Part shown: positions 2 to 20,519 of the stretch, one piece after another
How positions within the stretch are numbered: the stretch's first letter is position 1
Layout: every line of letters starts with the position of its first letter
Source: Thermoplasmatales archaeon
GTDB taxonomy: Archaea; Thermoplasmatota; Thermoplasmata; Methanomassiliicoccales; Methanomethylophilaceae
Reading direction: 5' to 3'
DNA length: 64,000 bases
NCBI GenBank assembly: GCA_012520845.1
Contig: JAAYNL010000019.1
Span: 62,001-126,000, forward strand
Notes under the pieces: generated by a model
The model's database searches: none
What the model was told of the DNA's origin: nothing
What the model saw: only the letters and a program-made list of their open reading frames with translations
Program-made: the position numbers and the translations under genes

Positions 2-703
2 GTGATGGGGTTCACATATTCAAGCATACTGGGTCAATACGGCATCGTTACCAACGCGTTCCTTTTCGGACTGATTCCCGCCGCGGCGATAATCCTTCTG
101 TCCAGATTCGTTGATGCCTCGCCCGCAACGATGATCCTCGCGGGAATCGCGATATCCTACACATTCAATTCGTTCAACACTTTAATTATGATAACCAGTG
201 AGGCGGAAACACTGAAAAGCGTTTATGTTTGGCAAATCGGGACCCTTTCCAGAGCTTCCTGGAACGACTTGCCAACGATGCTGACAGTGACAATCGTAGG
301 CTCCGCGTTCGTTTTGCTTACCACAAGGCAACTGAACCTTCTCATGCTTGGCGAAAAAAGCGCGATAAGCCTGGGACTTGACGCGGGCACGTACAGGATT
401 GTGTGTCTCGCAATCCTTTCCGTCTCCACGGCCGGAATCATCAGCTACACGGGGATAATTGGTTTCGTGGGCTTGGTTTCGCCCCATATCGTAAGGATGT
501 TGATTGGTGCCGACAATAGGTATCTCGCCCCGGCCGCGATGGCCTTCGGTTCGGCTTTACTGATGGTTGCCGACATAATAGGAAGGATTATAGTGCAACC
601 GGCCGAATTGCCGGTGGGCGTCATACTTTCGTTCGTCGGGGCGCCGATATTCCTTTACATCATCATGCGCCAGAAGAAAGGGTACGGGGGTGACCTATAT
701 TGA
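2..703 (+). CDS. FecCD/BtuC-family ABC permease, 5' truncated by window edge
   Basis: C-terminal two thirds of a metal-chelate/cobalamin-type ABC importer permease (FecCD family); the beginning lies before base 1. Several hydrophobic helices are visible, and the family's conserved late segment GIIGFVGLVSPHIVRM is present, followed by the end motif LPVGVILSFVGAPIFLYIIM. The gene ends in TGA, which overlaps the TTG start of the next permease (TTGA). The pair would form a heterodimeric membrane channel. The substrate cannot be read from the sequence; iron-siderophore, heme or corrinoid are the usual options for this family. Confidence 0.9.
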   Translation: MMGFTYSSILGQYGIVTNAFLFGLIPAAAIILLSRFVDASPATMILAGIAISYTFNSFNTLIMITSEAETLKSVYVWQIGTLSRASWNDLPTMLTVTIVGSAFVLLTTRQLNLLMLGEKSAISLGLDAGTYRIVCLAILSVSTAGIISYTGIIGFVGLVSPHIVRMLIGADNRYLAPAAMAFGSALLMVADIIGRIIVQPAELPVGVILSFVGAPIFLYIIMRQKKGYGGDLY

Positions 704-1770
704 GTGATGCCAACACGGATTTCAAAACAGGCTACATGATATACATCTCCAAAAAGGTCCTGTTCATCACATTGTTTTGCATCTTGGCCGCATTGTCAGT
801 GGGATTGGCGCTTTCTTTCGGGAAATACCCGATAGGTTTCCTGGAGTCGTACGAAATATTCTTTGACCACATTCGCGGCAGGGTGCCGGAAGGGGAAATC
901 GCCGTGACGAAAGACATGATCATCTGGGAATTACGGGCCCCCCGTGTGCTGATGGGTTTAATCGCCGGCGCCGGTTTGGCCGCGTGCGGCGTCACGATGC
1001 AAAGCGTCATGAGGAACCCGCTTGCCGATCCATACACCACCGGCGTGTCCTCGGGCGCGTCGCTCGGGGCAATTATATACCTGATTCTCGGCATAAGCCT
1101 TGTACCCACGCTAATCGGTCAGAACGCGGCGATCGCAAACGCGTTCCTGTTGTCTCTCATCCCCGCCGGGTTGATAATCCTCATATCGAGATTCATGAAA
1201 ACCACCCCCGCAATGATGATTTTGATAGGCGTTTCCGTAATGTTCCTATTCAGTGCGATAACGTCGCTGATCATGCTCGTATCCCACCCGGATCAGGTGG
1301 CCGAAGCCTATTCCTGGACCGCGGGCACGTTGGGGCGGGCCACTTGGAGCAACATTCCCATCTCTGCCGGCATAGTCTCCGCTTGCTGCGCCATAATGAT
1401 GGTTTACTCCGGTAAACTCAACCTGCTTTCGTCCGGCGACAAATGCGCCAGAAGCCTGGGGTTGAACCCCGACGGGACCAGGGTCGTCCTTCTGGTGATC
1501 GTTTCTTTCGCTACCGCTTCCATAGTCGCTTTCACCGGCACCATCGGTTTCATAGGCCTCGTGGCGCCACACATGGTAAGGATATTCGTTGGTTCCGACA
1601 ACCGATACCTGATGCCCGCTTCAATGGCGTTCGGTGCCTTCATGCTCACCGCCGCGGACTGCCTCGCCAGGGAAGCCGGTACCGCGGGACTGCCCGTGGG
1701 CGTGGTCACCGCCATGATCGGAGGCCCGCTGTTCCTGTACCTGTTGGTGAGAAAGGGAAAAAGGACGTGA
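700..1770 (+). CDS. FecCD/BtuC-family ABC permease (second of pair)
   Basis: Full-length 356-residue permease of the FecCD family, the usual size. It carries the MRNPLADPYTTGVSSGAS motif around residues 104-122 and the late GTIGFIGLVAPHMVRI segment. The start is TTG, overlapping the TGA of the upstream permease by one codon register (TTGA). A purine-rich Shine-Dalgarno run (GGGGGTG) lies about seven bases before it, so translation is probably coupled. No ATPase follows on this strand; the nearest is the minus-strand ATPase at 3133-3972. Membrane protein, predicted importer channel half; substrate unknown. Confidence 0.93.
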   Translation: MSDANTDFKTGYMIYISKKVLFITLFCILAALSVGLALSFGKYPIGFLESYEIFFDHIRGRVPEGEIAVTKDMIIWELRAPRVLMGLIAGAGLAACGVTMQSVMRNPLADPYTTGVSSGASLGAIIYLILGISLVPTLIGQNAAIANAFLLSLIPAGLIILISRFMKTTPAMMILIGVSVMFLFSAITSLIMLVSHPDQVAEAYSWTAGTLGRATWSNIPISAGIVSACCAIMMVYSGKLNLLSSGDKCARSLGLNPDGTRVVLLVIVSFATASIVAFTGTIGFIGLVAPHMVRIFVGSDNRYLMPASMAFGAFMLTAADCLAREAGTAGLPVGVVTAMIGGPLFLYLLVRKGKRT

Positions 1771-1804: not shown

Positions 1805-3055
1805 TCAGGTTGTGACGTCGGCCTTCTTCAGAAGGAAGGTGCCTTTCGTGACATCGTACTCGATGTTGCAGAAATTGTCGATGTATTGCTGATGGATCAC
1901 GTCGCCGTAGTCTCCGCCGAACAGATCGGGATAGATTTCCCCTGCGATGTATGCCACCCTGCATATCATTTGCATCGATCCGTTGACTACGAGCCCCTTG
2001 CCGTTTTCGTAAGCTCTGGTATTCACGACGTACTTGGTGCCATTGGTATAATGGTCCAACCTAGCATTCGCATCATGCAAATCGTAATTCATCGTTCTAG
2101 ACCAAATCATGTACTCGGCTTGGTATTTCTCCTGAAGGATGAATTCGTTGCCTATCTCTATGCGCTGGCTTTTTTCATCGAAATCGGCGAGGTTCTTGCA
2201 ACCTGCGAGATATGACACCTCCGCATAGGATGTGTGTTTACCAGCCACCGCGTTGGAATACCCCATCAACGTGGTTTTCCTGTTCCCCTCCCCGAGGGTA
2301 GCGGTCTTCTCCGCGATGTAGGACAAAATGTCGTCGCACCAACTTACGAAATCGATGGACTTCGCCTCACATTGGAGCATGAAACCAAGGGTTATCGCCC
2401 AACTCAGTTCATTGGCCATGTTTTCGTAACTAACCCTGATGACGTCGATGCCCGCGCCCTCCAGCCTGTCTTCGTCGCTAAGGTATGTGGGATGGTTCAT
2501 GACGACGACGGCATCGACCGAGATCTTCGATATCTCGTCCATGTTCACCTGTTGGGCCTTTCCAACCAAGGGGACGGCGGCCATGTCGGGATACCTGATG
2601 TCATCCCTGATCGTTAGGCCGGTAACCTTCCCGCTCGCACCGATGCACTGTATCTGAGGCGTGCAGCGGTCTATCGGAACCACCTTTTTTATCGGGTAAG
2701 AAAACGATTTGACCACGTCGTCCCCATTCATGTAATAGACTTTGTTTACCTCCTTTTTAGCCATTAGTTTCTGGACCATTTCTTTGTCTTTGACATCGAC
2801 GGCGCCATCCCTATTGGCATCGGCCAGGGGATAGTCTTCAGCATTCGCCTCCCCCGCGATTATCTTGTCGTAGAGAAGCAGGTCCTTGTGGTCGAGACGG
2901 TCATCGTTGTTCACGTTCCCGAATATCCTGAGCCTACCGATTTCACTCTCGAATACCGTGTCCTTTTCGCCGAAGTCGACGAAAACCAATATCGCGCCGA
3001 TGCTGACGACGGCCAGCAAAACGACGACACCAACGGCAATGACTTTTGCGTTCAT
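1805..3055 (-). CDS. Membrane-anchored substrate-binding protein with N-terminal dockerin-like module (SBP1)
   Basis: A 416-residue protein. Residues 1-27 are one hydrophobic segment without a lipobox cysteine, so an uncleaved anchor is likely. Residues about 46-100 hold two calcium-loop repeats of dockerin type (NVNNDDRLDHKD and DANRDGAVDVKD, each followed by a helix). The rest resembles the periplasmic-binding fold that partners FecCD permeases, ending with a YPDLFGGDYGD segment shared with the other three binding proteins here. The start is the ATG at 3055; the longer frame upstream is low-complexity and crosses the promoter. A palindromic operator lies 10 bases upstream. Ligand not known. 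Confidence 0.85.
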   Translation of the reverse strand: MNAKVIAVGVVVLLAVVSIGAILVFVDFGEKDTVFESEIGRLRIFGNVNNDDRLDHKDLLLYDKIIAGEANAEDYPLADANRDGAVDVKDKEMVQKLMAKKEVNKVYYMNGDDVVKSFSYPIKKVVPIDRCTPQIQCIGASGKVTGLTIRDDIRYPDMAAVPLVGKAQQVNMDEISKISVDAVVVMNHPTYLSDEDRLEGAGIDVIRVSYENMANELSWAITLGFMLQCEAKSIDFVSWCDDILSYIAEKTATLGEGNRKTTLMGYSNAVAGKHTSYAEVSYLAGCKNLADFDEKSQRIEIGNEFILQEKYQAEYMIWSRTMNYDLHDANARLDHYTNGTKYVVNTRAYENGKGLVVNGSMQMICRVAYIAGEIYPDLFGGDYGDVIHQQYIDNFCNIEYDVTKGTFLLKKADVTT

Positions 3056-3064
3056 TGTATCGGC

Positions 3065-3080
3065 TGGACATATTATCCAA
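3065..3080 (-). promoter_or_regulatory. Palindromic operator, copy A
   Basis: TGGACATATTATCCAA, ending 10 bases before the SBP1 start. It matches the TGGA-N8-TCCAA pattern found before several transporter units in this window. AT-rich promoter sequence (TTATAA at about 3086) lies next to it. Confidence 0.6.
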
Positions 3081-3132
3081 TTAGTTATAAGTACATTCTG
3101 GAAAATAATTTTTAATTGTCGAATGCAAGAAT

Positions 3133-3972
3133 TCAGGATGCGGCGACGCTGGGAGTGCCAGAGATGCCGATTTCTGGGCTTTCGTCTACGCAATCCGAGG
3201 AATCGCCCAGAGAATCATTGAGTATGACATGCGGCCTGCCGTTGTGCATCACCACGTTGGAATCGACCTTGTAAACAATCCTAATGTTTTCCTCCGTCAA
3301 CACTTCCTCGGGGGTGCCGACGGCAAAAATCGTACCTTCGTGCATGAGTATCATCCTGTCAGAAAATTTCGATGCTATGTTGAGGTCGTGGCTAATCATT
3401 ACTACGAGCATGTCCTTGGCGACGGATAGTTCCTTCAAGAGTTTTGTCACCTCGATTTGGTGCCTAATGTCCAGATTGGCCGTAGGTTCATCAAGAAGCA
3501 ACAACCTGGGTTCCTGAACGATTCCCCTGGCGAGCATCACCTTCTGGTGTTGCCCCGCGCTGAGTTCGTTGAATTGCCTCATGGCAAGATGTTCTATGCG
3601 CAGAAGCTTCAGCGTATCGTACACAATGTCCAAATCCGAATCGAGGGATTTCCATTTATTATGTGGGTGACGACCCATCAAAACGGTGTCGACGACCTTC
3701 AGCGGAAAGGCATCTCCGCCGGAATATGGGACATAGGCGAGTTTCTTCGCCAATTCCTTGAGGGGGATCCCTTTGATGTCCTCGCCGTTTATCATCACTA
3801 CGCCCTCGGTCGGCGTGAGGATTTTGTTCATGCAGTGGATTAACGTGGATTTGCCTACGCCGTTTGGACCGATTATCGAAACGAATTCGTTCCCCTCCAA
3901 ATCAAGGTTTATGTCCTTCAACACAGGCGTGCTGGAATAGGAAAAAGCAACGCCGTTGACGTTGATTCGCAT
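3133..3972 (-). CDS. FecE/BtuD-type ABC importer ATPase
   Basis: Cytoplasmic ATPase of a metal-chelate/cobalamin importer. Walker A GPNGVGKST, signature LSAGQHQK and Walker B LLLLDEP are all present, with the usual switch histidine (MISHDLN). The chosen ATG at 3972 gives 279 residues and lines up with the paralog at 13644. A TTG seven codons earlier (3993) would overlap the operator. It stands between two binding-protein genes with its own operator, so it may serve several of the permease pairs, two of which have no adjacent ATPase. The C-terminal 30 residues are variable. Confidence 0.92.
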   Translation of the reverse strand: MRINVNGVAFSYSSTPVLKDINLDLEGNEFVSIIGPNGVGKSTLIHCMNKILTPTEGVVMINGEDIKGIPLKELAKKLAYVPYSGGDAFPLKVVDTVLMGRHPHNKWKSLDSDLDIVYDTLKLLRIEHLAMRQFNELSAGQHQKVMLARGIVQEPRLLLLDEPTANLDIRHQIEVTKLLKELSVAKDMLVVMISHDLNIASKFSDRMILMHEGTIFAVGTPEEVLTEENIRIVYKVDSNVVMHNGRPHVILNDSLGDSSDCVDESPEIGISGTPSVAAS

Positions 3973-3977
3973 ATTAA

Positions 3978-3993
3978 TGGATATATCATCCAA
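3978..3993 (-). promoter_or_regulatory. Palindromic operator, copy B
   Basis: TGGATATATCATCCAA, six bases before the ATG of the ABC ATPase. Same spacing and half-sites as the other copies. The central AT-rich part may overlap the core promoter. Confidence 0.6.
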
Positions 3994-4064
3994 CTATATC
4001 AACCCACTTGTTCACCCTCACTCCGACTGCTCAAACATGACGAAACGTCCTGGAATCCAACGCG

Positions 4065-5348
4065 TCAAGCCATGACCGACGAGTCTATCACCAATAAATT
4101 CTCGGATGCCAGATAAGAGCCTTTCATATTGTCTTGGAAGTTGTCTATCCAGTATTGACAGATTACGTCCCCGTAACTCTCACCATAAAGTTCCGGATAC
4201 ATGACCTGGGCGGTATACGCCATCCTAACGACGAGCGGCATGTACGAGTTGATTATGGAGTACTTGCCATTTTTATACGCGTTCATTTTCGTGAAATACT
4301 GGCCATTCGAATCCCAGATCTCCGTGAGGTTTGGATTTTTCATGGGGAACTGTTTGTAGTGTATGATAAAATCGGCATCGTATGTATCATTCAGAAGCCA
4401 TTCGTCGCCTATCTCGAACTTTTTGGTGACGACGTCTTCCTTGAACAGGTTGGAGGCGCCGACGTGTTCGGTGACTTCATGATAATCCGATTTTAACCCC
4501 CCAATGGAATTCGACATCGTGACGTTTATGCACGTCACTATTTCTTCCGGCTTTATAGTGCCCGCCTTCGTTTCGATTTCCTTGTAAACGTCGTCACAGA
4601 ACTTGGAATACCTCCCGGCGCGTTCCTCCAGTTCCAGCATATACCCAAGGGTGATGACGGCGCTTACCGAGTCCCTGATGTTGGAGGTCGCCATCCTGAC
4701 CACGTCCACCCCCATACCCCTGATTGTTTCCTCGTTCTTCACGAAGGCTGTGCTGTCCATCGTAAAAACCGCGTTCAGGCCATCGTTCTTGAGTGTGGAA
4801 ATTTTCTCGTCGTCGGCACGCGTTACCGACGAGTCGCTCACCTTAAAAACGGTAGACAAGTCCGAAAACATCGTAGGATCCTTCTCCTCGCCCGTTGTGC
4901 CTATGATTTTGCTCGTCGCCCCGATTGACTGCAATGCGAGAAGCATGTTCGTCCCGACAACGGCACATTTCTTGACAGGGTAATTCAATGATTTTACCCT
5001 CTGTTCCTTGTTGTAGTAGTCGACGTAGAAGATTTTCATCTTCTCCCTGTTTACCATCCTCTTTACCCATTCGACGTCGTTTTCATCGACGACGCCGTCC
5101 TGGTTTGCGTCCGCAAGGGGATACTCCGTTTTCCAGTCCAATCCTTCGGCAATGATTTTCTCCAAGGTAGATACGTCTTCTCCATCCAGGTAATCATCGT
5201 TGTTTGCGTTGCCGAAAACCATCAGCCTGCCCGATCTGTCTAGAGACCTGTATGGCTTCTCACCTTCATTGAAAACGAACAGTACGCCGATTCCTGCCAC
5301 TACCAAAACAACGGCAACTACGATAGCCAGGATTTTTTTATCAATCAT
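4065..5348 (-). CDS. Membrane-anchored substrate-binding protein with dockerin-like module (SBP2)
   Basis: A 427-residue relative of SBP1. Residues 1-26 form a hydrophobic anchor with no lipobox. Residues about 46-100 contain two calcium-loop/helix units (NANNDDYLDGED, DANQDGVVDEND). The remainder has the binding-protein fold, including a YPELYGESYGD segment near the end. It is followed on the same strand, 38 bases before its start codon side, by the permease pair 5387-7788, which reads towards it, so the order of transcription is permease, permease, SBP2. SBP2 also has its own operator copy directly upstream. Substrate unknown; probably the binding component for that permease pair. Confidence 0.85.
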   Translation of the reverse strand: MIDKKILAIVVAVVLVVAGIGVLFVFNEGEKPYRSLDRSGRLMVFGNANNDDYLDGEDVSTLEKIIAEGLDWKTEYPLADANQDGVVDENDVEWVKRMVNREKMKIFYVDYYNKEQRVKSLNYPVKKCAVVGTNMLLALQSIGATSKIIGTTGEEKDPTMFSDLSTVFKVSDSSVTRADDEKISTLKNDGLNAVFTMDSTAFVKNEETIRGMGVDVVRMATSNIRDSVSAVITLGYMLELEERAGRYSKFCDDVYKEIETKAGTIKPEEIVTCINVTMSNSIGGLKSDYHEVTEHVGASNLFKEDVVTKKFEIGDEWLLNDTYDADFIIHYKQFPMKNPNLTEIWDSNGQYFTKMNAYKNGKYSIINSYMPLVVRMAYTAQVMYPELYGESYGDVICQYWIDNFQDNMKGSYLASENLLVIDSSVMA

Positions 5349-5351
5349 AAC

Positions 5352-5367
5352 TGGATTAATAATCCAA
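5352..5367 (-). promoter_or_regulatory. Palindromic operator, copy C
   Basis: TGGATTAATAATCCAA, an almost perfect palindrome three bases before the SBP2 start. An AT-rich TATA-like stretch (TATATAAAATA on the plus strand, about 5370-5380) lies just upstream in the direction of the gene. Confidence 0.65.
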
Positions 5368-5386
5368 TTATATATAAAATAATCTA

Positions 5387-6451
5387 TTAGCCTTTCAAGA
5401 GTTTGTTCTCTTTGATTAACAGATATATGAACAGCGGACCGCCAAACAATGCCGTAATGGTCCCGACGGGCAACCCAGTCGTCCCGACCGATCTTGCAAT
5501 GATGTCACACAACAATAGAAAAACGGCACCGAACGCCATCGAAGCAGGTAAAAGATACCTGTTCTCCGATCCAATGATCCTCCTGACCATATGTGGCACA
5601 GCCAAACCCACGAAGCCTATGGTTCCCGTGAAACTGACAATCGCGGATGTCATAAATGAGATTACGACCAAAAGATAAACCCGCAATGCGTTTATGTTAA
5701 TGCCCAGCGTCGCCGCGAGTTTGTCCCCAGAGGTCGAAACGTTAAGATGCCTCGACACAAGCATAAGCAATGCGGACCCCGATATGACGACGGTGGTTAC
5801 CACTCCTATGTTATCCCAGGTCGCTTTCCCAAGGGTGCCGACGCTCCATATGTACACCTCGGAAAGCGATTCGGGCTTCGCTAATAACTTTATCATGGCG
5901 GTCATCGCGGAAAAAACATACATTATCGCTATACCGGTGAGGATGGTCGTGGTGGCGGTCGTGTTTTTCTTGAAAATGTTCAATGCGACCATCACTGCAG
6001 AAGGGATGAGCGACAGCAGGAAGGCGTTGACTATTATCGCGTTTTGCCCCGTAATGGATGGCAACAGACAAAACCCGTAAACTATGGCAATGGAGGCCCC
6101 GAACGATGCACCGGAGGATACGCCCGTGGTATATGGGTCCGCTAGTGGGTTTTTCAACAAACTCTGCATGGCCGCGCCCGCCACGGATAGCCCGGCACCC
6201 ACAGAGACGGCCATCATGGAACGTGGCAACCTCATCTCCCAGACAACCTCGTCGGCCATCGTGACAACTTTATTTCGACCAAAGAGAATATTGATGAAAA
6301 TCCTGTAAGATTCCGTCACGCTCAATTCGTATTTACCGATTGACAGGGAAACGCAGAGTAGTGCGAATGTCAGGATGCAACACGCCGCGATGAATATCAT
6401 TTTTTTCCGGGTGTATGCGTGATATGATTTTTTGAAAGTAACCCTGCTCAA
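5387..6451 (-). CDS. FecCD/BtuC-family ABC permease (second of pair)
   Basis: A 354-residue importer permease with the LKNPLADPYTTGVSSGAS motif and the late GTIGFVGLAVPHMVRR segment. Start is TTG at 6451, overlapping the TGA of the upstream permease (TTGA), with GAGGG four bases before it. This repeats the arrangement of the pair at 700, suggesting translational coupling. Membrane; forms a channel with the product of 6448-7788. Confidence 0.93.
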   Translation of the reverse strand: MSRVTFKKSYHAYTRKKMIFIAACCILTFALLCVSLSIGKYELSVTESYRIFINILFGRNKVVTMADEVVWEMRLPRSMMAVSVGAGLSVAGAAMQSLLKNPLADPYTTGVSSGASFGASIAIVYGFCLLPSITGQNAIIVNAFLLSLIPSAVMVALNIFKKNTTATTTILTGIAIMYVFSAMTAMIKLLAKPESLSEVYIWSVGTLGKATWDNIGVVTTVVISGSALLMLVSRHLNVSTSGDKLAATLGININALRVYLLVVISFMTSAIVSFTGTIGFVGLAVPHMVRRIIGSENRYLLPASMAFGAVFLLLCDIIARSVGTTGLPVGTITALFGGPLFIYLLIKENKLLKG

Positions 6452-7788
6452 GAAACCCTCTCCCCATACGCTTTTTTCTGCCGTATTATAAAGTACAGGA
6501 ACAGCGGGCCCCCGACGAACGACATTACTATGCCTACCGGAATCTCCCCGCTTGGCACGATTAGCCTGCCTAACAAATCGGCCGACAGCAACATGGCCGC
6601 CCCCAGGGCGATGGACCCGGGGATGGTGAATTTATTATCGGCGCCGATTACCATCCTTACTATATGAGGGGAGACCAACCCCACGAACCCGATGACCCCC
6701 GTAAAGCTCATTATCGACGCGGCCATCAGAGAAACGAGAATCAGACATAGCATTCGATACGTCGCGGCGTCCAGACCGAGACTTTTCGCGCTTTCATCCC
6801 CCAGCATCATCAGGTTCAGTTTCCTTGAGGTGAACATAACCAACGCGGCCCCAATCAACGTCATCACAAGCATTATGCGAACATCAGACCACATGAGGTC
6901 CGTGATGGAACCGATTTGCCAATGGTAGACCTTGTGGATTTCCTCCACGCCCGTGGATACCAGCATCAACGTCGTGAACGAACTGAAAAGGTAGGACATC
7001 GCGACACCCGCCAGAATCACGGTTGCGGTGGTCGATCTCGGCATCCGGGACACGACAGCGACGACCATCGAAGGTATTATGCCAAACAAAAACGCGTTTA
7101 GGATTAGACCGTACTTCCCGACAACGGTCGTCACGGAGAAGCCGAACACCAGAGCCAATGCCGCTCCGAAGCATACACCGGACGAGACCCCCGTGGTGTA
7201 TGGGTCCGCAAGGGGATTCCTCAGCACGCTCTGCATGACCGTTCCGCAGATTGCGAGGGAAGCGCCGGCAATCAGGCCTGCGGCAATCCTCGGCAACCTG
7301 ACGTTCCAAATCACATACCAATCCAACCAATCCAAAGAACCGGGGGGATGCCTTACCCCCCTAATGTGGTTGAAAATAATCTCGTAGGCCTCGAAAAACC
7401 CGATGTCCCTGCTTCCAATCGTACAGCTAATTCCTGTCACCGCCACGCACACAATGACACAGAAAAAAATAAACAGAAGTTTCCTAGCAACGTAGGATTT
7501 GTATTCTCCATGGAATTCGACTGGGTACACCGGTTCTTTTTCCAACCCCTCCAATTTCCTCTTTTTTTCCTCCAGCTCAATGTCCCTTACCATAAAAGCC
7601 GAATAGACGATTACAACAATCGAAATCAGATGGGATATGACGACTATGATTACCGCGCTGTCGTCCTTGAACCCATAAACAGACGCCATAACAACCGTTA
7701 CGACGGCCATCAAAAGAACGACGGTCAGAATCAAAATCGTGAAAAACTTGCCGCGGCCCTCGAATTTCACCGTTTTTCGCACCACCAT
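6448..7788 (-). CDS. FecCD/BtuC-family ABC permease with N-terminal two-helix extension
   Basis: At 446 residues this is about 90 longer than its family. Residues about 15-37 and 45-66 are two extra hydrophobic helices, followed by a charged stretch (EEKKRKLEG) before the normal FecCD part starts near residue 100. The family motif LRNPLADPYTTGVSSG and the GVIGFVGLVSPHIVRM segment are present. First gene of the minus-strand unit 7788-5387, with an operator copy 16 bases upstream of the ATG. The role of the extension is not known. Confidence 0.92.
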   Translation of the reverse strand: MVVRKTVKFEGRGKFFTILILTVVLLMAVVTVVMASVYGFKDDSAVIIVVISHLISIVVIVYSAFMVRDIELEEKKRKLEGLEKEPVYPVEFHGEYKSYVARKLLFIFFCVIVCVAVTGISCTIGSRDIGFFEAYEIIFNHIRGVRHPPGSLDWLDWYVIWNVRLPRIAAGLIAGASLAICGTVMQSVLRNPLADPYTTGVSSGVCFGAALALVFGFSVTTVVGKYGLILNAFLFGIIPSMVVAVVSRMPRSTTATVILAGVAMSYLFSSFTTLMLVSTGVEEIHKVYHWQIGSITDLMWSDVRIMLVMTLIGAALVMFTSRKLNLMMLGDESAKSLGLDAATYRMLCLILVSLMAASIMSFTGVIGFVGLVSPHIVRMVIGADNKFTIPGSIALGAAMLLSADLLGRLIVPSGEIPVGIVMSFVGGPLFLYFIIRQKKAYGERVS

Positions 7789-7803
7789 CCATATTGAGAT
7801 AGA

Positions 7804-7819
7804 TGGAATATATATCCAA
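7804..7819 (-). promoter_or_regulatory. Palindromic operator, copy D
   Basis: TGGAATATATATCCAA, 16 bases before the permease start at 7788, with TATA-like sequence embedded in the centre, so a bound repressor would cover the promoter. Confidence 0.65.
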
Positions 7820-7996
7820 TATTATATCATTATTACTGAATTTTCAATGATGTCGCATTTATGCGTATTACTGTGATTACGGACACGATGCGGAATTTAT
7901 TGCAGATTTCGCCCTACGTCTATTAGCGAGAGAACATAAGGGCGGGCATTTTTGATTGCTCCGTTTCAAGGAACCGTGAAAAAACAAATTGAACAG

Positions 7997-8113
7997 TCAC
8001 TTCTCAATTGCTATCAGCAAATCGCCCATCTGTATCGTGTCGACGGCCCTGCCGCCGAGCATCAGTTTCCGTTCCGGCTCGAAATAGCCGGGGCCGACGT
8101 CGATTTCCCTGCC
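7997..8113 (-). pseudogene. 3'-end fragment of a second valyl-tRNA synthetase gene
   Basis: The 117 bases align without gaps to the 3' end of the intact valS at 14478-14594. I count 11 differences, all near the stop end and all silent; the last 57 bases are identical. The encoded tail (REIDVGPGYFEPERKLML and on to IAIEK) is the same protein. Upstream of 8113 the match stops abruptly and the frame runs into unrelated sequence, so only about 39 codons survive. No function expected. Best explained by a duplication or gene-conversion event followed by deletion. Confidence 0.8.
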
Positions 8114-8518
8114 ATCGACGAAGTCGTTCGAATACGGGTACAGAAGGCTCAAGGATTTGCGCACCGGAGGGGACACTCCGTTGGGCGACGCCCTCGTGAA
8201 ATCCCACGAATACATGACCAGGTACGCGAGGATGAACCCGGGAGAGGATGTTACGTGGTGCTGGTGACCGACGGCAGGGCGAACATCGCCTTAAAGAAGG
8301 GCGAGGACCCGAATTCCGAAGCCGTGGCCATCGCCAGGATGTTGTCCGATTCCTTTTTCAAGTGGATCGTCATCGACACCGAAACGGGGCCACCGACGTT
8401 CGGATGCGCCGCGAACCTTGCCAGGAACCTCGGTGCGACCTATTTCTTGCTGGAAGACCTCGATGCGGACGCGCTGAGGGACAGTGTGGCGTTTGTGACC
8501 GAAAAAACCGTTATTTAA
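8112..8518 (+). pseudogene. 3'-end fragment of a chelatase D (BchD/ChlD-like) gene with a frameshift
   Basis: Reading 8112 onward gives a VWA-domain segment (SFEYGYRRLKDLRTGGDTPL, then KSHEYMTRYARMNPGED) that stops in frame at TGA. Shifting frame near 8250 continues the same domain (YVVLVTDGRANIALKKG to the TAA at 8518). One missing base explains both. It resembles the C-terminal part of the intact BchD at 52454-54472 but is clearly diverged (for instance VTDGRANIA against MSDGRANVS), so it comes from a different paralog. The N-terminal AAA part is gone; its broken end touches the broken end of the valS fragment. Confidence 0.8.
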
Positions 8519-8519
8519 G

Positions 8520-8543
8520 AAAAATACGGGGGCGACGCCCCCG
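8520..8543 (-). terminator. Hairpin plus T run after SBP3
   Basis: On the minus strand CGGGGGC pairs with GCCCCCG (3-base loop) and is followed by TATTTTTCTT, seven bases after the SBP3 stop: a clear terminator-like structure. It lies right at the end of the bchD relic on the other strand. Confidence 0.65.
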
Positions 8544-8550
8544 AATGGGT

Positions 8551-9876
8551 TTACGCCTCCAGGGCATCCAGATACATTTGGTAGGTTATCGTCGTCGTGA
8601 TGTCCTTGGAGACGTCCAAATGGCCGTCCTCGACGCCGTCGTGCAAATACGGAAGGTATTTGTCGAGATAGTCCTGGAACATCTCGTCGCCGTAGCCGTC
8701 GAAAATGTTCGGATACAGTATCTCTGCGACGTACGCCACTCTTATCGGGACGGGGATGCTGGCGTTGACGTAGACTATCTTCTCGTATTTGGCAGACGCC
8801 TTCAAAATTGCCATCTGATCTTTGGTTGGCCTCTCCCATTCTTTCTTGATGTCGAGCTTCTTCAAATCCAGGGTTCTGTAGCTTATGATGTAATCAGCAT
8901 TATCGTACTTTGTTATGGCATCCCCCGTCAACGATATCGTCGTATCGCCTTCAAATCCAGAGATGTCGTTCCCGCCAGCCATCTTGGTGATGATTGCATA
9001 ATGGGAATATCTTTCCGATATGTGCACATACCTGCTCAGGGATATGCAATCGGCCTTATTGACGCCTTTGAGTTTCTTGGCGACGTTTTCCATGATAGCC
9101 ACGCCGTCGGCACACACGTTGTAACCCCTCTCCTCGTAATCGCCGCCGAACAGGAACCCAATCTTCAAGGCGGAGTTGGCAAAACCGATCGGGCTGGTGC
9201 AATCAACGTGTATTAATGGTACTCCCGCAGCTTCGAGGTCGCTTCTGTATTCGGCCACGGCAGGTTCGGTCATGTACAATATGGCGCCAACGCCGCCCTC
9301 GTCTGAAAGATTTGAGCTGAGGGTTTTGAAACTCGCATACGTCGCTTTGTTGATATATCGGGTCCCGTCCAGCCTAAAGATGCTTGGATCGTTGAGAATG
9401 TATGCCTGTTCGCAAGGGAATTCGTTTGCCCCGAAACCCGCCAACACATCCTTCGCGCCGAGGGAAATAATGAAGGAAAGCATGTCCGGGTTCATGGTCA
9501 CGACGTTTTTCAACGGGTATTTGACGGAAATTACGTTGTCGCTGTCGTCGACAACATTGATGGTCGTCTCGTCTCTGGCAACAATTTTCTTCAGAGCTTC
9601 GACGTCATTGGAATCGACTTTGCCGTCGTTGTTCACGTCGGCGAACGTATATTCGTCCGAGGTCCCGTCGGCTATTATCTCGTTCAGCTTATCGAGGTCG
9701 GCCTGGTCGATTTTGTGGTCGCCGTCGACGTTGCCCATTATCGCGAGGGTCATGCCGGACAGGTCTGTTGCCCTGACCTTCCTAGTCACCTCCTCGTCGT
9801 CCATTGTTATGTAAATCCCGACGGCGGCAACCGCGACGATGGCGACTACCCCTATCGTAATCAATTTAGCGTTCAT
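8551..9876 (-). CDS. Membrane-anchored substrate-binding protein with dockerin-like module (SBP3)
   Basis: A 441-residue protein, close paralog of SBP4 next door. Hydrophobic anchor at residues 1-25, dockerin-like pair of calcium loops at about 48-100 (NVDGDHKIDQAD, DVNNDGKVDSND), then the binding domain. The ATG at 9876 is the natural start. Unlike the other transporter units it has no TGGA-N8-TCCAA palindrome upstream; SBP4 is transcribed towards it but a terminator hairpin lies between. It therefore may be expressed differently from its twin. Presumed partner: a FecCD importer; ligand unknown. Confidence 0.85.
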   Translation of the reverse strand: MNAKLITIGVVAIVAVAAVGIYITMDDEEVTRKVRATDLSGMTLAIMGNVDGDHKIDQADLDKLNEIIADGTSDEYTFADVNNDGKVDSNDVEALKKIVARDETTINVVDDSDNVISVKYPLKNVVTMNPDMLSFIISLGAKDVLAGFGANEFPCEQAYILNDPSIFRLDGTRYINKATYASFKTLSSNLSDEGGVGAILYMTEPAVAEYRSDLEAAGVPLIHVDCTSPIGFANSALKIGFLFGGDYEERGYNVCADGVAIMENVAKKLKGVNKADCISLSRYVHISERYSHYAIITKMAGGNDISGFEGDTTISLTGDAITKYDNADYIISYRTLDLKKLDIKKEWERPTKDQMAILKASAKYEKIVYVNASIPVPIRVAYVAEILYPNIFDGYGDEMFQDYLDKYLPYLHDGVEDGHLDVSKDITTTITYQMYLDALEA

Positions 9877-9999
9877 ATTAATCCCTAATATAGTAACACG
9901 TAATTAAGATTAATAACATTTCGATTCATGCATACCGGTCACTGATTGTGACGCCGAACGGCTGTTGCACATTTCGCTATCGCGAATCGTTTTATATAA

Positions 10000-10022
10000 A
10001 AACGAAAAGGGGATACCCCTTT
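10000..10022 (-). terminator. Hairpin plus T run at the end of SBP4
   Basis: AAAGGGG and CCCCTTT (10006-10022) form a 7-bp stem overlapping the SBP4 stop codon. On the minus strand it is followed by CGTTTTTATA. This should end SBP4 transcripts before SBP3. Confidence 0.65.
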
Positions 10023-11349
10023 AGGTTTGTGCATCGATTTCCGCTTTGTACATCTGATAGGTCACCACGGTCGTAACGTCTTTGGAAACGTCCAATTTCC
10101 CGCCCTCGGCGTTCTCTTTCAGATACGCCAGATAATTGTCAACGAATTCCTGGAACGCCTCGTCACCATACCCTTTAAAAACGGTTGGGTGAAGTATTTC
10201 GGCAACGTATGCCACCCTGACGGGTACTGGGATGCTGGCGTTGAGGTAGACCAGGCCCTCGTACGACCCAGAAGCCTCTAGTATGGCTTTCTGTTCATTG
10301 TTTGGCTTTTCCCATACGTCGACAGAGGTGTATTTCCCCAAATCCAGCGTCCTGAAGCTTACGATGTATTCAACGCCGTCGTATTTGGTAATGGCATCAC
10401 CTTTCAAGGCGGTGGAACTCGTACCTTCCAAGTCGGTCAAGTTGTTCCCGCCTGAAAGTTCGGTAAGCAAGGTATATTGGGAATTCTTCTGGGTTAAGGA
10501 AACGGTCATTGTCAACGAAATGCAGTCCGTCTTCTTGACACCCTTTAGTTTCCCTGCGACGTGGTCCATTATGGCAACGCTATCTCTGCATATGTCCAGA
10601 CCCTTTTTCTCGAAATCGCCGCCGAAGAGGAATCCGAGTTTCAAGGCCGAGCCTGCGTAATCCAGAGGATTGCTGGCATTGACCCACAGCAGGGGGATTC
10701 CCGCGGCTTCAAAATCGCTCCTGTATCCGCCTAGTGCGGCCTCGGACATATACAGTATGGCCCCAATACCGCCCTCTTTGGAAAGATTCGAACTGAGGGT
10801 TTTGAAATTGGCGTATCCCGCCTTGGTGAACGCCCTCGTCCCGCCCAGGTCCACGATACCTTCAACATCCTTTATGTAAGCCTGTTCAATGGGGTAGGAA
10901 GTGGATACGTAACCAGCCAAAACGTCCTTTCCCCCAAGCGCTATCATGAGTGAAAGCATATCCGCCGTCAGACTAACGACGTTCCTCAACGGGTATTTTA
11001 TCGTAATTATGTTCGAGTTGTCGTCGACGACGTAGACGGTTGTCTTCTCCCTGGCGACGATCTTCTTCAAAGCCACGACATCATTGGAGTCCACTTTACC
11101 ATCATTGTTAACATCGGCGAACGCATAGCTATCCGCTGTGCCGTCGGCAATGATCTCGTTGAGTTTGTCGACATCCGCCTGGTCTATTTTGTGGTCTCCG
11201 TCGACGTTGCCCATGATTGCCAACGTCATCCCGGACAAGTCCGCGAATCTGTCTTCCTTTATGTCTTCGTCGCCCATCAGAAAATAAATCCCGACGGCCG
11301 ATGCTGCCACGATTGCGACGATTCCGACTGCGATTAGTTTGGCATCCAT
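10021..11349 (-). CDS. Membrane-anchored substrate-binding protein with dockerin-like module (SBP4)
   Basis: A 442-residue paralog of SBP3, probably from tandem duplication. Hydrophobic anchor at residues 1-25; two calcium loops at about 47-99 (NVDGDHKIDQAD, DVNNDGKVDSND) nearly identical to SBP3; then the binding domain with the shared end segment. The ATG at 11349 is preceded by AGGTG at six bases; the in-frame sequence further upstream runs through the promoter and is not coding. Divergent from the permease-permease-ATPase operon 11502-14477, which it most likely serves. Extracytoplasmic, anchored; ligand unknown. Confidence 0.87.
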   Translation of the reverse strand: MDAKLIAVGIVAIVAASAVGIYFLMGDEDIKEDRFADLSGMTLAIMGNVDGDHKIDQADVDKLNEIIADGTADSYAFADVNNDGKVDSNDVVALKKIVAREKTTVYVVDDNSNIITIKYPLRNVVSLTADMLSLMIALGGKDVLAGYVSTSYPIEQAYIKDVEGIVDLGGTRAFTKAGYANFKTLSSNLSKEGGIGAILYMSEAALGGYRSDFEAAGIPLLWVNASNPLDYAGSALKLGFLFGGDFEKKGLDICRDSVAIMDHVAGKLKGVKKTDCISLTMTVSLTQKNSQYTLLTELSGGNNLTDLEGTSSTALKGDAITKYDGVEYIVSFRTLDLGKYTSVDVWEKPNNEQKAILEASGSYEGLVYLNASIPVPVRVAYVAEILHPTVFKGYGDEAFQEFVDNYLAYLKENAEGGKLDVSKDVTTVVTYQMYKAEIDAQT

Positions 11350-11416: not shown

Positions 11417-11501
11417 TAATACATATATTTTATCATTTTGTGAAAGATAATCATAATTATATTTGAAACAGTATTACGATACACTGCGACACGGAGGAAA
11501 C

Positions 11502-12584
11502 ATGGAAAAGACTGTTGGAGCGGATGCCGTTTGGGCATACAGGAAGGATGTGGCGAAACGCATATCCTTCATAACAATTTGCATAGTCTCTGTATTCTTC
11601 GTCATACTTCTTTCAGGTTCCATCGGCACCACATATGGATTTTGGGACGTTTACGAAGTGATTTATGAACGCATCATGGGAATCACGCACCCCACGGCAA
11701 GTCCCGAATGGTGGAGAAGCCATTACATTTGGAACAATTCCCTGCCCCCAATCATAATCAGCGTCATAGCCGGCGCCGGGCTTGCCATCGGGGGGACCGT
11801 CATGCAAAGCCTCATGGGGAATCCGTTGGCGGACCCATACACCACAGGGATATCCAGCGGTGCCAGCCTCGGGGCGGTTTCGGCGATTGTCACGGGGTTT
11901 ACGTTCAGCTCGATCTCCGGCGAGATGGGCATAGTCTCCAGCGCGTTCCTCGGCGCGCTCATACCCGCGTTTCTGGTCATATTCCTGACGCGTTTCGTCG
12001 GCAATTCGCCCACGACCATGATCCTCATTGGCGTGGCAATATCGTATTTCTTTAACTCAATGGTCACCTACCTGATGATTACGACCGACACCGACAAGCT
12101 CCAGGAGGCGTTCTTGTGGCAGATTGGCTCGGTTTCCGGCACCGGATGGGGAGATATACCTCTCATGCTGACCATCGTCGTTTTTTCCGGCATAGCCGTC
12201 GGCCTGGTTTCCAACAAACTGAATCTGATGATGCTTGGGGATAAAAGCGCGAAAAGCATGGGTCTCGACATCGAGAACTTCAGGACCCTCTGCCTGCTGC
12301 TCCTCGCTTTCCTCGTGGCTTCCATAATAAGCTACACGGGCATCATCGGCTTCGTGGGCCTAATCACCCCGCACGTCGTTAGGTTCATAATCGGCGGCGA
12401 CAACAGGTTCGTCGCACCGGCGTCGGTCGCTATGGGAGCCTTCATCCTGGTTTCCGCCAACCTGATTTCCAATTTGCTTATGCCGATAGGCGATATCCCC
12501 ATAGGTGTCGTGATGTCCTTTGTCGGGGCACCGATATTCCTTTATCTCATTCTCAGAAGCAAGGCCGGGAGGGATATGTTCTGA
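11502..12584 (+). CDS. FecCD/BtuC-family ABC permease (first of pair)
   Basis: A 360-residue importer permease with the MGNPLADPYTTGISSGAS motif and the late GIIGFVGLITPHVVRF segment. The ATG at 11502 is chosen because GGAGG lies four bases before it; an in-frame ATG 13 codons earlier has no such site. First gene of a complete permease-permease-ATPase operon. Membrane; forms the channel with the next gene. Confidence 0.93.
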   Translation: MEKTVGADAVWAYRKDVAKRISFITICIVSVFFVILLSGSIGTTYGFWDVYEVIYERIMGITHPTASPEWWRSHYIWNNSLPPIIISVIAGAGLAIGGTVMQSLMGNPLADPYTTGISSGASLGAVSAIVTGFTFSSISGEMGIVSSAFLGALIPAFLVIFLTRFVGNSPTTMILIGVAISYFFNSMVTYLMITTDTDKLQEAFLWQIGSVSGTGWGDIPLMLTIVVFSGIAVGLVSNKLNLMMLGDKSAKSMGLDIENFRTLCLLLLAFLVASIISYTGIIGFVGLITPHVVRFIIGGDNRFVAPASVAMGAFILVSANLISNLLMPIGDIPIGVVMSFVGAPIFLYLILRSKAGRDMF

Positions 12585-13642
12585 AGGAATATGATTTCAG
12601 CGAATACAAAAGGGAAACTTGGAAAAAATTGATTTTCTTCCTGCTTTGCATAATCGGGTCTGTGTTTCTGTTTGTCTACTCCCTGGGGGTGGGGCACTTC
12701 GATTGCGGCATCCTCGAAGCATTCGACATAATAGGGAAATCCCTAAGGGGCGAGGAATTGGCCAGACAGACGAAACACATCATTTGGTACGGACGTACGC
12801 CCTCTGGACTGATGGCGATTGCCGCCGGGGCGATACTGGCGGCGGGAGGGGGCGTCATGCAGACCCTCCTAAGGAACCCGTTGGCCGACCCATATTCCAT
12901 GGGGATTTCCTCGGGTGCTCTATTCGGGGTTTCGATAGCCGTCATAATGGGCATCTCCATTTACGACTCCAGCCAAAGCTATGCGGTGATACTGAACGCG
13001 TTCGTATTCGCCCTCGTGCCCATGGCAATCATCCTGATGGCTTCCAGAAGGGGTGACATGACCCCTTCCAAAATAATTCTGACGGGTATCGCCGTGATGT
13101 TCGTATTTTCCGCCTTCTCAACAACGCTCATGCTTACGACGGACTCGGAGACATTGGCCACGGTTTATTCCTGGAGGGTCGGCACTCTTGACGGCATCAG
13201 TTGGGCATCCTTGGGCATCGTTTCCGTCGTAGGCGTCATCGGAATATCGTTCCTGCTTACTCAGGCACGCAAATATAATGTCATGACCGCCGGCGACAAC
13301 AGCGCGAAATCGATGGGTGTCGATCCCAAAAGGACGACGTTGGTTGGGATGACGGTCATATCCCTTATGACGGCTACCGTCGTGTGTTTCACCGGCACAA
13401 TCGGGTTTGTCGGTCTTGTGGGACCGCACATCGCAAGGCTTTTCGTGGGATCCGAATCCAAATTCCTAATACCCGCAGCAGCGGGATTCGGTGGCATCTT
13501 CCTATTGGCATCGAGCTGCGTCGCAAGGGTTTCTGGCCCGTTGGGACTTCCCGTCGGCGTTATTAGCGCCATGGTAGGTTGCCCATTATTCATAATAATC
13601 CTTGTAAAAATGAGATCCAACGTATGGGGGAGCGGAGTCTGA
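12581..13642 (+). CDS. FecCD/BtuC-family ABC permease (second of pair), probable CTG start
   Basis: Importer permease with LRNPLADPYSMGISSGA and GTIGFVGLVGPHIARL. The first standard start is TTG at 12629, but the frame already codes before it: residues KEYDFSEYKRETWKK match the charged N-terminal stretch of its paralogs. The best start is CTG at 12581, overlapping the preceding TGA (CTGA) with GGGAGGG seven bases upstream. That is the same overlap geometry as the TTGA starts of the other two permease pairs. From 12581 the protein has 353 residues, normal for the family; from 12629 it has 337. Confidence 0.9.
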   Translation: MKEYDFSEYKRETWKKLIFFLLCIIGSVFLFVYSLGVGHFDCGILEAFDIIGKSLRGEELARQTKHIIWYGRTPSGLMAIAAGAILAAGGGVMQTLLRNPLADPYSMGISSGALFGVSIAVIMGISIYDSSQSYAVILNAFVFALVPMAIILMASRRGDMTPSKIILTGIAVMFVFSAFSTTLMLTTDSETLATVYSWRVGTLDGISWASLGIVSVVGVIGISFLLTQARKYNVMTAGDNSAKSMGVDPKRTTLVGMTVISLMTATVVCFTGTIGFVGLVGPHIARLFVGSESKFLIPAAAGFGGIFLLASSCVARVSGPLGLPVGVISAMVGCPLFIIILVKMRSNVWGSGV

Positions 13643-13643
13643 A

Positions 13644-14477
13644 ATGAAGATAGACATCAAAGAAATGGGTTTTGGCTACACCGCCACGCCTGTGCTGAAA
13701 GGGATAAACCTGGCAATCGGAGGGAATCAACTCGTTTCCATACTTGGCCCAAATGGCGTGGGAAAATCCACACTGATTCACTGCATCAACAAAATCCTAT
13801 CGCCGAAAGAAGGCGTTGTGCTCCTCAATGACGTCGACGTCTCCGAAATAACCATTAAAGACTTGGCAAAGGAGATTGGATACGTTCCATATTCCACGAC
13901 CACGTCGTTCCCATTGTCGGTCGTCGACACCGTGCTCATGGGCAGGCACCCCCACAGCAAATGGAAAACAACGGACGAGGATTTGCAGAAGGTCTACGAA
14001 ACGCTTGACCTCCTAGGCATAGAACACCTTGCCATGAGATCTTTCAACCAGTTATCGGCGGGGCAACACCAGAAGGTCATGCTCGCAAGGGGTTTGGTCC
14101 AAGAGCCGAAAGTACTCCTCCTGGACGAACCGACGGCCAACCTTGACATCAAACACCAAATGGAGGTCGCAAGAATCATGCGAGACCTTGCCCATGAAAA
14201 GGGGATTACCGTCATCATGATTAGCCACGACATCAATATTGCCGCTACGTACTCAGACAACGTAATCCTGATGTACGAAGGCAGCATATTTGCCGTCGGC
14301 ACGCCGCATGAGGTCATAACGAAGGAGAACATCAAAAAAGTCTATGGCGTGGAATCGGAGGTGGTGGATTTCCGAGGCAAGCCCCACCTGGTCCTCATCG
14401 ATGAAAAATTGAAGAACCTTGAACTTCCGAAAGACTCCTACGTCTCGATGAGGGCGCAGGAAACCGCGGCCAGATGA
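13644..14477 (+). CDS. FecE/BtuD-type ABC importer ATPase
   Basis: A 277-residue ATPase with Walker A GPNGVGKST, signature LSAGQHQK and Walker B LLLDEP. It starts one base after the permease stop with GGAGCGGAG before it, so it is the third gene of the 11502 operon. Close paralog of the minus-strand ATPase at 3133. Energises uptake through the two permeases. Convergent with valS, whose stop is the next base. Confidence 0.94.
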   Translation: MKIDIKEMGFGYTATPVLKGINLAIGGNQLVSILGPNGVGKSTLIHCINKILSPKEGVVLLNDVDVSEITIKDLAKEIGYVPYSTTTSFPLSVVDTVLMGRHPHSKWKTTDEDLQKVYETLDLLGIEHLAMRSFNQLSAGQHQKVMLARGLVQEPKVLLLDEPTANLDIKHQMEVARIMRDLAHEKGITVIMISHDINIAATYSDNVILMYEGSIFAVGTPHEVITKENIKKVYGVESEVVDFRGKPHLVLIDEKLKNLELPKDSYVSMRAQETAAR

Positions 14478-20503: not shown

Positions 20504-20519
20504 TGGATTATGTATCCAA
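20504..20519 (+). promoter_or_regulatory. Palindromic operator, copy H, before ABC exporter
   Basis: TGGATTATGTATCCAA, eight bases before the ATG of the exporter ATPase. It is the same 16-base pattern as at 3065, 3978, 5352 and 7804. A TTTTATC box lies just upstream (about 20494-20500). Confidence 0.6.

Follow-up and report, generated by a model that had tools for sequence, protein, structure and literature searches.

Dockerin-like modules precede the binding domain in four FecB-type binding proteins of a Methanomassiliicoccales archaeon without a detected cohesin

Four dockerin-bearing binding proteins at a FecCD importer locus

The window analyzed here, a stretch of 64,000 nucleotides (C11:62001-126000), comes from a 1.38 Mb, 94% complete genome that its nearest named relatives place in the Methanomassiliicoccales, Methanomethylophilaceae-type. 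It carries four minus-strand coding sequences (SBP1-4; Table 1), whose products of 416-442 residues each combine a hydrophobic segment at the N-terminus with a match to Dockerin_1 and a binding domain of the FecB/TroA type. Peripla_BP_2 (PF01497) is matched by Pfam in SBP1 and SBP2, while the binding domains of SBP3 and SBP4, which are encoded by a DNA repeat of 70-76% identity, were assigned through alignment to SBP1 and SBP2. The dockerin family PF00404 matches SBP2 with an E of 1.0e-4 (the other three values are in Table 1). In whole-protein Pfam scans one of these four matches lies over the cut-off and the remaining three fall under it by 0.1-2.5 bits, and in a Pfam search at genome level all four lie over it. 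The A4 family-specific dockerin profile, which includes three of the SBP1-4 sequences among its members, scores the four modules at 72-96 bits (E 1.8e-27 to 7.5e-20); with such scores, and with homologous segments in 118 ORFs, a chance occurrence of D-x-D-x-D motifs is ruled out. The reading in the initial annotation of a membrane anchor, dockerin-like loops and a FecB-like domain is thereby borne out by Pfam and profile matches as well as by the structure models described below. The genome contains eight intact dockerin matches, all of them within dockerin-bearing binding proteins, and a ninth such gene is broken by a single in-frame TAA (G000:C7:39496-40900; L014:3496-4900), which probably reflects either pseudogenization or a mistake in the assembly. 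No dedicated NCBIfam family for the fusion scored over its cut-off.

Table 1. Features of the importer locus, with positions counted from the first nucleotide of the window.
Feature	Position	Strand	Evidence
FecCD permease, convergent with SBP1	700..1770	+	PF01032 match at C11:62790-63752
SBP1, membrane-anchored FecB-type binding protein with dockerin-like module	1805..3055	-	ORF; PF01497, 4.4e-11; PF00404, 5.9e-4
Dockerin-like module of SBP1	2756..2938	-	A4 profile, 86.9 bits, E 1.3e-24; C11:64756-64938 minus 62000
FepC-type ABC ATPase adjoining SBP1/SBP2	3133..3993	-	PF00005, 6e-29; likely start at ATG near 3972
SBP2, architecture as SBP1	4065..5348	-	ORF; Pfam; AlphaFold2 (pLDDT 94.3, pTM 0.91)
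Dockerin-like module of SBP2 (protein residues about 40-103)	5043..5231	-	A4 profile, 96.1 bits; isolated fold; Foldseek
FecCD permease	5387..6451	-	PF01032, 5e-86
FecCD permease	6448..7788	-	PF01032 match at C11:68481-69446
SBP3, architecture as SBP1	8551..9876	-	ORF; PF00404, 2.7e-6
Dockerin-like module of SBP3	9574..9750	-	A4 profile, 73.1 bits
SBP4, architecture as SBP1, close paralogue of SBP3	10021..11349	-	ORF; PF00404, 1.5e-4
Dockerin-like module of SBP4	11047..11226	-	A4 profile, 71.7 bits
FecCD permease, divergent from SBP4	11463..12584	+	PF01032, 3.1e-77
FecCD permease	12629..13642	+	PF01032 match at C11:74662-75609
FepC-type ABC ATPase	13644..14477	+	ORF with Walker/ABC signature

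SBP1-4 are class III (FecB/TroA-type) substrate-binding proteins of FecCD ABC importers, with genes for FecCD permeases and their ATPases nearby in the window. The same holds across related loci, where within the fetched flank a FecCD permease accompanies 71 of 78 and a matching ATPase 66 of 78. To judge from their family, they probably bind an iron complex, another metal complex or a cofactor. The genome has 21 strong FecCD permease genes in its 1.38 Mb and thus invests heavily in importers of this kind. The window contains a palindrome, TTGGAT-N5-ATCCA (positions 3065-3080, 3978-3993, 5352-5367, 7804-7819 and 20504-20519), which is also found at C11:58472, C14:5948, C14:6866 and C8:56034. 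Its exact form occurs at nine places in the genome (14 strand hits; none for the reversed-pattern control), and in exact or near form it is found a short way upstream of six dockerin-bearing binding protein genes out of nine, and at permease and ATPase gene starts. It resembles an operator for a common repressor, which may respond to metal. Locus L021 (112-1728) encodes a 538-residue protein with two near-identical tandem FecB-type domains and no dockerin.

Fold and sequence type of the module

The AlphaFold2 model of SBP2 (88-row alignment; mean pLDDT 94.3) is of low confidence over the first ~30 residues (pLDDT in the 50s), while nearly all of the dockerin and the binding domain scores about 98. 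Since a pTM of 0.91 is reached despite this N-terminal stretch, the model suggests a firm placement of the dockerin relative to the binding domain, with little room for it to move freely. Predicted in isolation (66 residues, 54 rows), the SBP2 dockerin has a pLDDT of 94.9, and its best 33 matches in a Foldseek search against the PDB are all dockerins (TM mostly 0.65-0.76), at E values that are weak (0.03 upward) owing to the tiny size of the domain. The full SBP2 model retrieves iron-siderophore binding proteins with an E of about 1e-13, and a profile of the eight paralogues run against PDB chains matches dockerins and iron-siderophore binding proteins in separate segments. Together, the isolated fold, the dockerins found by Foldseek and the separate PDB-matching segments define the module as an extra domain, and Pfam, AlphaFold and Foldseek agree on the two tandem repeats of calcium loop plus helix that characterize PF00404. 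The alternative against which the initial annotation had set its reading, a segment belonging to the binding fold, is ruled out, since the module folds alone as a dockerin.

Compared with type I cellulosome dockerins (CelS, 2mte/1daq; Xyn10B, 1ohz/2ccl), the modules share the two calcium-type loop-helix repeats (TM about 0.65-0.76) and differ in having no cohesin partner that could be found, a first loop that starts with Asn and lacks Gly6, asymmetric loops, and polar or charged residues at the docking positions. They also lie N-terminal to a binding protein, whereas type I cellulosome dockerins are carried by a glycoside hydrolase. The C-terminal domain has the fold and family of class III iron/siderophore binding proteins (YiuA, 9hrp; the E. 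eligens protein 4hn9; TM0189, 2etv; CeuE), but the matched chains span the binding domain only, at an identity of just 13-18%.

The calcium-type loops of the SBP2 module comprise residues 47-58 and 80-91. In SBP1-4 loop 1 reads N-x-(N/D)-x-D-(D/H)-x-x-D-x-x-D, in which the first residue is Asn and the sixth is not Gly, and the canonical D-x-N-x-D-G appears in loop 2 only. Two D-x-(N/D)-x-D-G loops had been described initially; the presence of two calcium-type loops and the canonical form of the second stand, and the first does not conform. Asn occupies position 1 of loop 1 in all 88 aligned sequences of the binding-protein type, a count shaped partly by a retrieval pattern that selected for Asn-first loops, and in all 18 family hits that Pfam found independently of this pattern. 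Among the 88 homologues the calcium-ligand pattern (positions 1, 3, 5, 9 and 12) is near-invariant apart from this replacement of Asp, and positions 1, 5, 9 and 12, themselves nearly invariant, are at least as conserved as in the cohesin-associated type. On the strength of the sequence pattern, both loops would be expected to hold calcium.

The residues that recognize cohesin follow a different course. At positions 11 and 14 the family's cohesin-associated dockerins mostly have Leu or another hydrophobic residue, where the binding-protein type has Lys, Glu, Asp or Ala, and positions 10-11 and 17-18 vary between dockerin paralogues of the same genome, so that the recognition positions do not resemble those of cohesin-associated dockerins. 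Cohesin-bearing relatives have a canonical dockerin type, with GDVNGDGKVNVLDSLLLRKYL in both repeats (GDVNGDG..LDSLxLRKYLA), on different and often long proteins; by sequence type, the binding-protein dockerins do not belong with it. A tree from the short alignment separates the two types completely, with a support of only 0.45 that is no proof. Two homologous binding proteins of Methanosarcinia (L185 and L186; L186:229-1413) have an N-terminal module that seems to be single-loop (GDLNGDxIVSxEE) followed by helices, and in L186 Pfam matches the binding domain only.

Spread of the fusion and search for cohesins

When 84,980 species genomes were scanned, 78 loci were returned, most of them from Methanomassiliicoccales, with Methanothrix and Methanocellaceae in addition. 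Combined with the loci of the genome itself and of its family, these give 129 units of dockerin and binding domain in 118 ORFs, with a median gap of 8 residues, and in the 129 units the dockerin precedes its binding domain. Across the phylum, strong module matches fall within the order Methanomassiliicoccales. Of 200 genomes around Methanothrix, 57 contain a match, the highest copy number being at least 31, and the modules lie in arrays of adjacent genes of ~420 codons. Many of the modules in Methanosarcinia come after what resembles a signal peptide, and an anchor is not obvious there. Three Methanosarcinia genomes (G528, G532 and G484; loci L171-L190) hold arrays of neighboring genes, with 23 to at least 31 copies per genome. 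Sequence distances of the dockerins correlate with those of the binding domains (Mantel r 0.41, p 0.001), and the module is therefore mostly inherited with its binding domain; frequent swapping of dockerins between binding proteins is unsupported.

The order of domains is kept in tandem proteins, found in nine relatives with two or three units each (L071, L080, L081, L099, L105, L111, L122, L125 and L139), in which each unit starts with its own dockerin. For L080 the tandem reading is backed by Pfam (dockerins and two stretches of binding domain), and in L125 Pfam detects a pair of dockerins preceded by a Big_2 (Ig-like) domain. ABC importers with two or more binding domains per polypeptide are known from GlnPQ, and several binding domains per chain also occur in these relatives of SBP1-4; unlike in GlnPQ, every binding domain comes with a dockerin of its own, and array and permease are separate polypeptides.

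In ANME archaea dockerins are commonly found on ABC binding proteins of the NikA/OppA and TroA types, beside multi-cohesin proteins (Chadwick et al., 2022; PMC9012536), and the fusion as such is therefore already known. Common to the ANME proteins and SBP1-4 is a dockerin on ABC-importer binding proteins, among them members of the TroA superfamily, which takes in the FecB-type proteins. In SBP1-4 and their relatives the dockerin is of the Asn-first subtype and sits immediately before the binding domain. With the ANME proteins already described, and with the survey showing the architecture to be common in Methanomassiliicoccales and Methanosarcinia, the initial description of the fusion as unusual does not hold. 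Our search of the open-access literature found no report on dockerins in Methanomassiliicoccales importers, on a cohesin-free subtype or on tandem arrays.

Two profiles that would miss a divergent cohesin or an unrelated receptor found no cohesin in the 94% complete genome itself, neither PF00963 at E<=1 nor a profile of the family's own cohesins at E<=0.01, and a cohesin scaffold encoded in this genome is to that extent unsupported. Among 102 family genomes, 70 have dockerins, while cohesins are present in 16 at E<=0.01 (11 over the cut-off) and in 12 by the family-tuned profile, leaving 54 genomes that bear dockerins and no cohesin. Six closed genomes (G007, G010, G011, G049, G052 and G054) have 3-10 copies of the module each and no cohesin that was found. 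In a minority of relatives (L023-L033, L052-L061) cohesins are encoded along with dockerins of the canonical type, and in some of these a single long protein contains several cohesins; a true cohesin-dockerin system is possible in these gut methanogens.

Two trans-acting alternatives have to be weighed against these results. In the first, a large, cohesin-independent dockerin subfamily that is standard in archaeal metal/cofactor importers would act by recognizing a non-cohesin receptor or through calcium gating. This is possible, if unlikely, and if true the presence of a dockerin would no longer imply docking onto cohesin. In the second, which we consider improbable, the dockerin would attach the binding protein to a partner that escapes the sequence profiles, either a cohesin-like scaffold or a protein of the S-layer. 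The fold is indeed that of a dockerin, cohesins are encoded in those 12-16 family genomes, and scaffoldin-like multi-cohesin proteins stand beside dockerin-bearing binding proteins in ANME archaea (PMC9012536). However, no cohesin is detected in this genome, unlike those of ANME, or in most module-bearing relatives, the closed genomes included, and the cohesins of the family co-occur with the different, canonical dockerin type. The positions that are hydrophobic in docking dockerins are charged or polar here and vary among the paralogues of one genome, and the proteins are already anchored in the membrane. The suggestion of the initial annotation that the module fixes the binding protein to a scaffold thus finds no support, either in its proposed search for cohesins or in the docking face.

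A possible cis-acting spacer and its meaning

The reading we favor, with a confidence somewhat better than even, is that of an orphan, cohesin-independent dockerin subfamily that acts in cis as a calcium-stabilized rigid spacer or folding brace. It is supported by a module that keeps the calcium-ligand pattern and has kept neither the docking face nor a detectable cohesin partner, and likewise by the predicted dockerin fold, the constant location just ahead of the binding domain and the joint inheritance of the two. The dockerin-type double EF-hand would sit as an orphan between membrane anchor and binding domain, where two Ca2+ ions may stabilize a compact, autonomously folding spacer. Joined by a short linker to its own binding domain, such a spacer could set the distance and orientation of that domain with respect to the membrane and permease, with no docking of the module onto cohesin. 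The non-canonical first loop, with Asn1 and no Gly6, is to judge from its residues a point against a calcium-bound spacer. Moreover, given the Methanosarcinia homologues with no evident anchor and the seemingly single-loop L185 and L186, a membrane spacer is not the whole story.

Less probable still than docking, though possible, is the calcium control also suggested in the initial annotation, as a gate in which Ca2+ occupancy would alter the folding of the dockerin or the way it packs against the binding domain, switching substrate capture or delivery on and off. The strong conservation of ligand positions in both loops and the fixed geometry suggested by the AlphaFold model are consistent with such a switch, but extracellular calcium would rarely vary enough in such a setting to operate it, and the homologues with an apparent single loop suit a structural role better. 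Least probable of all is a contact of the module with the FecCD permease or a neighboring binding protein that clusters binding proteins at the importer, as the presence of a permease near most loci and the clustered binding domains implied by tandem proteins might suggest, since variable exposed residues speak against a single conserved interface and binding proteins of this genome that lack the module serve the same permease family.

Whether or not the module acts as a cis spacer, the term dockerin is read by annotation pipelines and papers as a sign of scaffold docking, and the data indicate that dockerins on FecB-type binding proteins of Methanomassiliicoccales and Methanosarcinia, methanogens of gut and wetland, form a type of their own, found mostly where cohesins are absent. 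For these proteins the functional inference from dockerin to scaffold docking is corrected. Some genomes have 8-31 or more copies, an expansion which suggests that much is invested in taking up metals or cofactors, and the dockerin-bearing binding proteins offer a simple, testable system for the role of a dockerin fold without cohesin.
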